DNA of 64,000 bases from Reinekea forsetii (lineage in GTDB: Bacteria > Pseudomonadota > Gammaproteobacteria > Pseudomonadales > Natronospirillaceae). Below are positions 9,797-62,640 of this stretch, in pieces. The position numbers and the translations under genes were made by a program. How positions within the stretch are numbered: the first letter of the stretch is position 1; every line of letters begins with the position of its first letter. The notes beneath the pieces are model-generated. The model ran no database searches. It was not told where the DNA came from and saw only the letters and a program-made list of their open reading frames with translations. The stretch spans positions 43,057 to 107,056 of the forward strand of contig NZ_JAHKPH010000009.1 of assembly GCF_018860385.1 (NCBI RefSeq), written 5' to 3'.

Positions 9797-9872
9797 TGGC
9801 TCCTCGAGCTGGACTCGAACCAGCGACCAATAGATTAACAGTCTACTGCTCTACCAACTGAGCTATCGAGGA
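9797..9872 (-). tRNA. tRNA-Asn (GTT), distal copy
   Basis: A 76-base tRNA including an encoded CCA. The cloverleaf has acceptor arm TCCTCGA/TCGAGGA, D-arm GCTCAGTTGGTAGAGC, anticodon loop CTGTTAA (anticodon GTT) and T-arm GCTGGTTCGAGTCCAGC. It differs from the second copy only by a compensated T-A to C-G change in the acceptor stem. Confidence 0.97.
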
Positions 9873-9918
9873 TTAATCGTTGAAATACCGCTACTAGAGC
9901 CATACTTCGTAATTGAAG

Positions 9919-9994
9919 TGGCTCCCCGAGCTGGACTCGAACCAGCGACCAATAGATTAACAGTCTACTGCTCTACCAACTGAGCTATCGGGGA
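9919..9994 (-). tRNA. tRNA-Asn (GTT), promoter-proximal copy
   Basis: A 76-base tRNA with encoded CCA, acceptor TCCCCGA/TCGGGGA and otherwise the same sequence as the copy 47 bp downstream. The two are probably transcribed together from the T-rich region above position 10000. The presence of gatCAB at 45-49 kb makes it possible that Asn-tRNA is made by the amidation route. Confidence 0.97.
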
Positions 9995-15255: not shown

Positions 15256-15339
15256 CTTCGCTCGAAGCAAATCAAAAACGCAAAACTTTTGTTTTTACCC
15301 GTAGCCCGACCCGCAACCTAAAACACATCAGTAAAACAC

Positions 15340-15450
15340 GCCTAGGTGGCTCACTTCACTTCCGCGGGTCGCTTTTCGTGCATCCATGCACCGCTAAACT
15401 TCGCCATCCATGGCTCAGATGCCCGCTCCAGCAAAGCCAGCCACCAAGGC
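15340..15450. repeat. Hairpin repeat unit, copy 1 (111 bp)
   Basis: Bounded by a 12-bp inverted repeat (GCCTAGGTGGCT at the left, AGCCACCAAGGC at the right, one mismatch). The interior has two more small hairpins: GTGCAT-CC-ATGCAC and GCCAT-CC-ATGGC. It is nearly identical to copies 2 and 3. Confidence 0.85.
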
Positions 15451-15676
15451 TAACCACAGCATCAGCTTTTGTAGGAGCAAGCAAAGCCCCGAAAGTTTTA
15501 ATGTTTTGACCTTACTTGAAACTATTAACTTGTAGCTTGCAGCTAAAACTCGCAGCCCGCAGCCCGCAGCCTAAAACTAATCATCTAATCGAAGCCACGA
15601 ATGTATAAATATTTTGACCTTACTTGAAGCTAATAACTTGCAGCTTGCAGCCCAAAAAAACACATCAGCGAAACCC

Positions 15677-15787
15677 GCCTTGGTGGCTCGCTTCACTTCC
15701 GCGGGTCGCTTTTCGTGCATCCATGCACCGCTAAACTTCGCCATCCATGGCTCAGATGCCCGCTCCAGCAAAGCCAGCCACCAAGGC
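15677..15787. repeat. Hairpin repeat unit, copy 2 (111 bp)
   Basis: Same structure as copy 1, with a perfect 12-bp terminal inverted repeat (GCCTTGGTGGCT/AGCCACCAAGGC) and the same two inner hairpins. The unit starts 337 bp after copy 1. Confidence 0.9.
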
Positions 15788-15928
15788 TAACCACAGCATC
15801 AGCTTTTGTAGGAGCAAGCAAAGCCCCGAAAGTTTAAATGTTTTGACCTTACTTGAAGCTACTAACTTGCAGCTTGCAGCTAAAACTCGCAGCCCGCAGC
15901 CTAAAACAAAAACACATCAGCGAAACCC

Positions 15929-16039
15929 GCCTTGGTGGCTCGCTTCACTTCCGCGGGTCGCTTTTCGTGCATCCATGCACCGCTAAACTTCGCCATCCAT
16001 GGCTCAGATGCCCGCTCCAGCAAAGCCAGCCACCAAGGC
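15929..16039. repeat. Hairpin repeat unit, copy 3 (111 bp)
   Basis: Identical in layout to copy 2, perfect terminal inverted repeat, starting 252 bp after it. It is followed by three further short TTTTGACC-type units up to about 16290. Confidence 0.9.
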
Positions 16040-16349
16040 TAACCACAGCACCAGCCTTAGTAGGAGCAAGCAAAGCCCCCGAAAGTTTAAATGTTTTGAC
16101 CTTACCCGAAGCCCGCAGCCCGCAGCCTAAAACTAATCATCTAATCGAAGCCGCGAAAGTTTAAATGTTTTGACCTTACCCGAAACTCGCAGCCCGCAGC
16201 CTAAAACAAATCATCTAATCGAAGCCACGAATGTTTAAATGTTTTGACCTTACTTGAAGCTAATAACTTGCAGCTTGCAGCTTGAAACTCGCAGCCCAAA
16301 ACAAAAACCGCTACTCTATATAAAAAATTAATACTACATAGGATCCTCA

Positions 16350-21543: not shown

Positions 21544-21816
21544 CATCTTTAATTTTATGGCTTAACAACGGTGCCTTGATCTTGTTTTTCGGAGCCGAAA
21601 TTGGTTTGGAAATCCTCCAAGGTTTTAAGTTTTCAGAAAACTCGCAGCCCGCAGCCGCAGCCAAAAACCCCCTCCGTTTGTTCCATAAATTTAAAAGTCC
21701 CTGCTAAAACCTAGAAATCGATTTGATTTGGTCTTTAATAACGCGTTGAAAACGATTTCAATTGACTGGAAATTGAGTTGGTCATACTTTATTAGAAAAT
21801 AACAATGAGATTGATT

Positions 21817-62384: not shown

Positions 62385-62640
62385 CCGCAAATGTTTTGAC
62401 CCTACCTGAAGCCCGCAGCTCGCAGCCTAAAACTCCGCATAAGCGGCCAATGCCCATTGTTCGGTCGTTGTTTGTGCATCCATGCACCGCTAAACTTCGC
62501 CTTCCTTGCTCAGATTCCGATCAATGGGCAGTAGCCACCCAAGCTCAAAACGGTACCAATCTATATTTAATGGAAGGAGCGCTCGCAGGACAGGCAGGTA
62601 AGTTTTGACCCTACTCGCAGCCCAAAACACTCCAAAAAAC
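62385..62640. repeat. Diverged repeat block related to 15.3-16.3 kb
   Basis: It contains two TTTTGACCCTAC-type units, CGCAGCC runs, and one hairpin unit (62451-62530). In that unit the core GTGCATCCATGCACCGCTAA is identical to the 111-bp repeats, while the outer stem has a different sequence (TGCCCATTG/CAATGGGCA). No gene in it. The 212 bp from here to gapA hold only an AT-rich promoter region. Confidence 0.85.

Follow-up and report, generated by a model that had tools for sequence, protein, structure and literature searches.

The window, by which we mean the whole 64,000-nucleotide stretch of the Reinekea forsetii contig analysed here, carries four copies of a TwoAYGGAY-like element. All lie on the minus strand, three of them close together at 15339–15448 (copy 1), 15676–15785 (copy 2) and 15928–16037 (copy 3), and a fourth, with a different outer stem, at 62436–62542. 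Covariance model R1, built from 33 copies, matched them with E values of 1.5e-31, 3.8e-33, 3.8e-33 and 1.7e-19, respectively, while model R2, built from alignment A3 (described below) after MAFFT alignment, scored 74.3 bits for each of copies 1 to 3 and 58.2 bits for copy 4. The three units at 15.3–16.0 kb and the one at 62.4 kb that were proposed in the original prediction are thus all present. A repeat search placed the first three in a tandem array (15320–16153) of three 245-nt repeats, spaced 337 and 252 nt from start to start, the second and third being 96% and 76% identical to the first. Of the 12-bp terminal inverted repeats ascribed to these units, those of units 2 and 3 match without error, while unit 1 has one substitution in them. 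The array is flanked by an EpmC gene on the plus strand and an Indigoidine_A/PfkB gene pair on the minus strand, with a putative plus-strand open reading frame of about 77 codons between them. Copy 4 is flanked by genes for a nucleotidyl transferase and for GAPDH, both on the plus strand.

Each element consists of a long stem (P1), almost free in sequence, which carries two hairpins, P2 and P3. Read on the minus strand, the P2 loop is C-AUGGAU-G, a CsrA-type motif, in copies 1 (15405–15412), 2 (15742–15749) and 3 (15994–16001), and the same loop closes P3 at 15381–15388, 15718–15725 and 15970–15977; both loops are conserved over 64 aligned copies. In copy 4 the P3 loop is again C-AUGGAU-G (62477–62484). 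The second inner hairpin, previously thought to be lost there, has a shortened stem and keeps its loop intact, aligned as C-AAGGAA-G at 62501–62508.

Other repeats accompany the elements. One starts at positions 15471, 15808 and 16060 of the window, where it reads GTAGGAGCAAGCAAAGCCCCGAAAG, and has the form GTAGGAGCG...CGCGA at other loci; it follows many copies in this genome at a short distance, on the plus strand, and its GTAGGAGCG...CGCGA form resembles REP heads. Repeats of the type GCAGCCCGCAGCCTAAAAC / TGTTTTGACCTTACC occur alongside the elements at 15500–16290 and 62389–62434, with a partial one at 21.6 kb (21618–21663). The window also contains a tandem pair of tRNA genes, 97% identical, at 9797–9994.

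Across the 3.42 Mb genome, R1 gave 76 matches at E ≤ 0.001, two of them cut by contig ends, from a search in which 150 of 944 first-look candidates were scored; BLAST gave 68. The copies occur both singly and in tandem. Contigs C1, C15, C10, C16 and C17 start, and C5, C2 and C6 end, within or near copies, and N lies within or near a copy at C12:158486, so the true copy number may exceed this count. R1 detected the element in 18 of 57 genomes (this one included), with no matches in three of five genomes of the same genus, a patchy distribution. With R2 at E 1e-4, it was found in at least 78 of 369 gammaproteobacterial genomes (again including this one) and at least 71 of 272 genera, these being lower bounds as 12 candidates were scored per genome under strict filters. 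Several genomes hold tens of copies; one, G034, has 35 matches. A single IMG/VR contig (L247, 6229–6254) matches the strict pattern of the P3 hairpin region exactly. A plasmid search with window positions 15665–15810 gave no match at E 1e-5.

To examine the fold we used 65 copies from this genome (69 nhmmer hits less four that were cut by contig ends or contained N) and 95 from relatives (101 matches less five same-place duplicates and one truncated copy). The arms of P1 differ completely between subfamilies and remain complementary within a copy: 64 of the 65 own copies pair better with their own arms than with the mean of swapped arms (means of 15.6 versus 7.7), as do all 95 copies from relatives when partners are drawn from other genomes. 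At the two loci in the window, too, both arms differ and each copy keeps its own arms complementary. Alignment A3 comprises 64 chosen copies from 18 genomes (12 from this genome, 52 from 17 relatives) and was made with MAFFT rather than fitted to a structure. Over its named 19-pair structure, 84.6% of cells are paired, compared with 63.1% in shuffled alignments and at most 48.4% when the structure is slid along the alignment. The covariation score, a check proposed at the outset together with the genome-wide covariance model, is 0.542, against 0.173 for shuffled and at most 0.246 for slid controls, and 18 of the 19 pairs show changes on both sides. P1 alone has 74.3% of cells paired, a figure in which subfamilies with a one-base register shift are scored as broken pairs; RNAalifold, run on the own-genome alignment, missed the inner part of P1, where the register differs by one base between subfamilies.

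These data bear on the simplest alternative, that the elements are recent duplications whose folds were inherited and whose structure is unselected. The three copies at 15 kb are indeed tandem, but the advantage of own over swapped arms in both sets and a covariation score three times that of shuffles leave this explanation with a negligible probability. Uncompensated stem changes were sought in all 160 copies and the fold withstood the search.

The strand on which pairing is maintained was assigned from mismatches. Watson-Crick-only scoring, which treats both strands alike, was applied to the P1 arms of the 65 own copies, and on the minus strand the mismatches comprised 171 G.U and 10 A.C pairs. 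G.U exceeded A.C in 62 of the 65 and was the rarer in one; the copies being kin, these are not counts of independent events. The 95 copies from relatives gave 107 G.U and 15 A.C stem mismatches; in genome G009, A.C outnumbered G.U, with three against one. A constraint acting on double-stranded DNA or a cruciform predicts equal numbers of the two. All but one of the 65 own copies fold with lower energy on the minus strand (64 of 65); of the gap of −13.5 kcal/mol between strands, −9.0 kcal/mol (about two thirds) is attributable to composition as judged by shuffles, and the gap exceeds the mean of a copy's own shuffles in 57 of 65. We conclude that the minus strand is well supported as the structure-bearing strand on which pairing is preserved, and that selection on a strand-specific, RNA-like fold is likewise well supported. 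The original prediction was right that the fold is real and selected, with strong covariation, and the element looks like a structured RNA and a dispersed repeat at once; the strand it described was the plus strand.

Conservation within the element is concentrated in the loops and the junction. Tallied over columns 14–78 of A3 (n = 64), the P2 loop consists of C (63), A (63), a variable base (T 50, A 6, G 6, gap 2), G (62), G (64), A (64), a second variable base (T 57, C 4, A 3) and G (63). For P3 the tally is C (63), A (63), a variable base (T 40, G 15, C 4, A 3, gap 2), G (63), G (63), A (64), a variable base (T 50, C 9, A 3, G 2) and G (63). The stem bases adjacent to the loops vary freely (column 24: G 33, C 26, A 5; column 54: A 27, C 20, G 14, T 3), and seven junction bases reach at least 60 of 64: U17 (63), A48 (62), G49 (64), C50 (60), G74 (60), C75 (64) and G76 (63). 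Loop conservation was measured here on related, model-selected copies, and the search models also weight the loops; since they gave weight to the N positions and the junction as well, the search itself does not create the difference between fixed and free positions. The two C-A(N)GGAN-G motifs occur together in 138 of 160 copies (49/65 own, 89/95 from relatives), against 0.65 expected from shuffles, and in 28 of 29 examples from the class-level survey; 16 of the 65 own copies are without one or both full motifs. Exactly two motifs occur in 132 copies, and in 119 of these the distance from GGA to GGA is 20 or 21 nt.

A long outer stem holding two hairpins with AYGGAY-type loops is the architecture of TwoAYGGAY (Rfam RF01731). 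Copies 1–3 carry AUGGAU in both loops; copy 4 carries AUGGAU in one loop and, in the other, AAGGAA, which departs from a strict AYGGAY, and the loop across the family as a whole is ANGGAN. The RF01731 model nevertheless misses the window copies at 15.3–16.1 kb: there was no match in the window at the gathering score, and none between 15300 and 16100 even at E 10, copy 4 being covered by the gathering-score search and a genome-wide search at E 0.01. At E 0.01 this genome gave a single match, of 32.6 bits, where the gathering score is 43. Among ten family loci searched at E 1, two matched (L087, 40.8 bits; L218, 36.8 bits), and in 16 genomes the gathering score was exceeded in four and E 0.01 reached in ten. 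General Rfam searches with the window and with one locus (L014, 1400–1800) returned nothing useful for the element. In the other direction, R2 matched the same places as RF01731 at four loci where the latter exceeds 43 bits (L248–L251; 58.4, 21.0, 70.1 and 48.7 bits for R2). This recovery of over-threshold loci, together with the shared architecture, places the repeats in the same family, and we interpret them, on homology and architecture, as divergent relatives of TwoAYGGAY that fall outside the Rfam threshold. In the available part of the original description (Weinberg et al. 2010, PMC2864571), a table gives human gut, gammaproteobacteria and Clostridiales as the sources of TwoAYGGAY and rates it as probably an RNA and probably without a cis-regulatory role; Rfam, unlike that table, gives its type as Cis-reg.

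A second Rfam family, Ysr224 (RF02770, Yersinia sRNA 224), matched four of ten family loci, in every case on the opposite strand and below the gathering score of 70: L121 (1527–1625), L228 (1456–1573), L221 (33–132) and L218 (1458–1571), the four scores, in descending order, being 30.9, 29.1, 24.0 and 23.4 bits. For L121 alone (E 1.3e-5, 30.9 bits), the consensus aligned across both hairpins and the linker. Read backwards, the Ysr224 consensus shares with the element both loops, the GAGC linker and UUUACGGCGUC; it differs in being annotated on the other strand, where the loops read UCC rather than GGA. These matches suggest that Ysr224 and TwoAYGGAY may represent opposite strands of a single family, and in the partial texts retrieved by literature searches for Ysr224, TwoAYGGAY and AYGGAY we found no paper joining them. 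Multi-copy, transcribed relatives have already been published as Ysr224, on the strand without GGA: in the accessible text of the relevant reports, Yersinia ruckeri has several transcribed copies, 80–91% identical, and a survey counts Ysr224 among the sRNAs annotated most often and describes it as temperature-responsive in Yersinia pseudotuberculosis.

The conserved loops resemble the recognition hairpin of CsrA/RsmE. According to the accessible sections of PMC7652899, CsrA recognises an ANGGAN hexaloop with variable N (SELEX consensus RUACARGGAUGU), the loops of CsrB carry CAGGA(U/A/C)G repeats, and one CsrA dimer bridges two sites 10–63 nt apart, with an optimum above 18 nt. The element has both features of a CsrA-binding RNA, namely an ANGGAN hexaloop on a stem and a pair of such sites within 10–63 nt, and its conserved loops coincide with the published hairpin, variable N and spacing included. 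In 13 of 160 copies (eight from G034) the exact SELEX 12-mer is present, compared with 0.02 in shuffles. Most SELEX hairpins have at most four contiguous pairs (PMC7652899, as far as accessible), a norm exceeded by the five-pair P3 of the window copies and by long P2 stems in relatives. The genome has one CsrA match, in which L4 and R44 are present when numbering starts from the inner MLILTRR.

A link between TwoAYGGAY and CsrA was made earlier, by authors whom we take to be Gardner and Eldai. That work (PMC4333381), in the part available, matched TwoAYGGAY to the CsrA motif and proposed CsrA-binding sRNAs, which were not validated there. The agreement in pattern strongly suggests CsrA as the ligand here too. 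We consider it probable that the minus strand encodes an RNA of the TwoAYGGAY kind that docks CsrA, and that the dispersed copies titrate or tether it. In the mechanism we propose, each repeat would encode a structured RNA on its minus strand, in which P1, free in sequence and kept in pairing, holds a three-way junction with two short C-ANGGAN-G hairpins 20–21 nt apart. When the minus strand is transcribed, the two loops could dock in both pockets of one CsrA dimer, and the dispersed copies, taken together, might titrate CsrA or keep it bound to whichever RNAs contain them; titration by way of copy number we put forward as a hypothesis. An RNA family of unassigned function gains a candidate ligand, whose contact pattern matches positions that stay constant while their surroundings change. 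If the proposal is right, the copy number of a dispersed repeat would become one of the factors in CsrA regulation in many genera of gammaproteobacteria.

Some observations sit less easily with CsrA binding as the sole function. The conserved junction bases (U17, A48 G49 C50 and G74 C75 G76) are not needed for docking alone, and the Ysr224 transcripts reported in Yersinia come from the strand opposite the GGA loops, which we note as a warning. These transcripts are the basis of a rival explanation in which the plus-strand RNA is the active species, a base-pairing sRNA like Ysr224, with the GGA loops arising as a by-product. The opposite-strand matches at four of ten loci (23.4–30.9 bits) would fit, as would the multiple transcribed copies in Y. 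ruckeri and the reported temperature response, so far as the available parts of those sources go. The stem, however, retains G.U on the GGA strand, which implies that pairing is maintained for that strand, and we regard the plus-strand explanation as improbable. High-copy CsrA-binding repeats were absent from the titles listed in a literature search that covered open-access titles. In the accessible text on the TAACTGA repeats of Beggiatoaceae, the authors weighed CsrA and judged it unlikely because those repeats are without GGA.

The known CsrA sponges CsrB, CsrC and RsmX/Y/Z also present GGA in hairpin loops and share the recognition motif (PMC7652899, in its accessible part). They have many sites, whereas the repeats here have two per unit, in dozens of dispersed copies, and no promoter was found. 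Promoter-like scores showed no enrichment over shuffles beside 63 own copies, beside 20 Saccharospirillum salsuginis copies or in the array. Of 63 own copies, 18 have a run of five T within 100 nt on the 3′ side and nine on the 5′ side (p 0.08), and in S. salsuginis such runs are equally frequent on either side (4 of 20). Three terminator-like sites were found in the array against 2.3 expected from shuffles, two of them immediately downstream of copies 2 and 3 in the minus-strand direction. A family of CsrB/RsmZ-like sRNA genes on the GGA strand, each with its own promoter and terminator, would account for two CsrA-type hairpins per copy, would stack sites in tandem arrays, and would gain from the 3′ T runs and the two terminator-like sites. 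The flat promoter scores, the even T runs in S. salsuginis and the location of copies between all kinds of gene pairs make it very improbable.

Transcription of the docking RNA could instead come from neighbouring genes. Read-through from the minus-strand Indigoidine_A/PfkB pair could transcribe the array in sense; at copy 4 no minus-strand neighbour is in view. Orientation relative to neighbours was assessed with crude longest-ORF gene calls over 275 kb, using 32 of 37 clusters after five of mixed orientation were dropped, and was unbiased: sense read-through is possible at 12 of 29 loci (p 0.46), and copies face the 3′ end of a gene at 18 of 29 (p 0.26). The absence of orientation bias over these 29 usable loci rules against a 3′-UTR element carried in sense with its neighbours.

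A further explanation holds that the repeat is a non-autonomous mobile element of the MITE or REP type, in which a transposase or recombinase acts on the folded single-stranded DNA, with the loops recognised by the enzyme and RNA irrelevant. Strand-specific tolerance of G.T is possible for folded single-stranded DNA as well, and the patchy distribution within the genus, the tens of copies in several genomes and the tandem duplication in the window are all as expected of such an element. In G034, nine fetched copies end sharply (TTACTAG...GGTAGTAA) in unrelated flanks, the precise ends of a MITE. Their termini, TTACTA...TAGTAA, have a form that a target-site duplication would also give. In S. 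salsuginis, divergent pairs occur in nine of 20 fetched regions, some of which were picked for having two close matches.

The transposase evidence is less favourable. REP/BIME elements are associated with a RAYT transposase, and the original prediction had named a REP/MITE-like element as one possibility and proposed to look for such a partner. A search for the Y1 domain (PF01797) gave no match in this genome and was positive in five of 14 control genomes. Of 17 element-bearing relatives 12 were tested, and 11 of these had Y1; of 39 element-free genomes 28 were tested, and 19 had it. With this genome included the comparison becomes 11/13 versus 19/28 (Fisher p 0.45). Only one of 20 Y1 regions fetched from relatives had a significant copy nearby (L209, in G034, which has 11 Y1 matches). 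A REP/RAYT identity is therefore not supported, nor, G034 aside, is RAYT as the general motor of the element. Set beside the coincidence of the conserved positions with the CsrA pattern, including the free N and the spacing, these results lead us to regard a purely mobile element as unlikely.

Mobility and CsrA binding could also be combined. A more speculative idea, which we hold only tentatively, is that TwoAYGGAY and Ysr224 are the strands of one mobile family spreading across the Gammaproteobacteria, and that some 76 copies, offering up to about 150 sites, may buffer or rewire CsrA, perhaps under the control of their own antisense. If true, this would amount to a selfish or domesticated CsrA sponge scattered through intergenic DNA. 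The present Rfam models miss the window copies and, if the CsrA proposal is right, would need rebuilding from the conserved core.

Among known repeats, REP/BIME elements share with the family their high copy number, intergenic palindromes and occasional inverted pairs; the repeats here differ in forming a three-way junction of about 110 nt, and in a genome with no Y1 match. The enterobacterial RU-1, RU-2 and RU-3 units of MITE type are likewise short, intergenic and mobile-looking. Unlike these, as the accessible part of PMC2759123 presents them, the conserved part here is the two loops, and the stems are what differ between subfamilies. A likeness to attC or hammerhead structures was also considered and set aside. 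In one of the nine G034 copies (L111, 1440–1670) the outer end sequences lie the other way round with respect to the core, as though the core had flipped between the stem arms.
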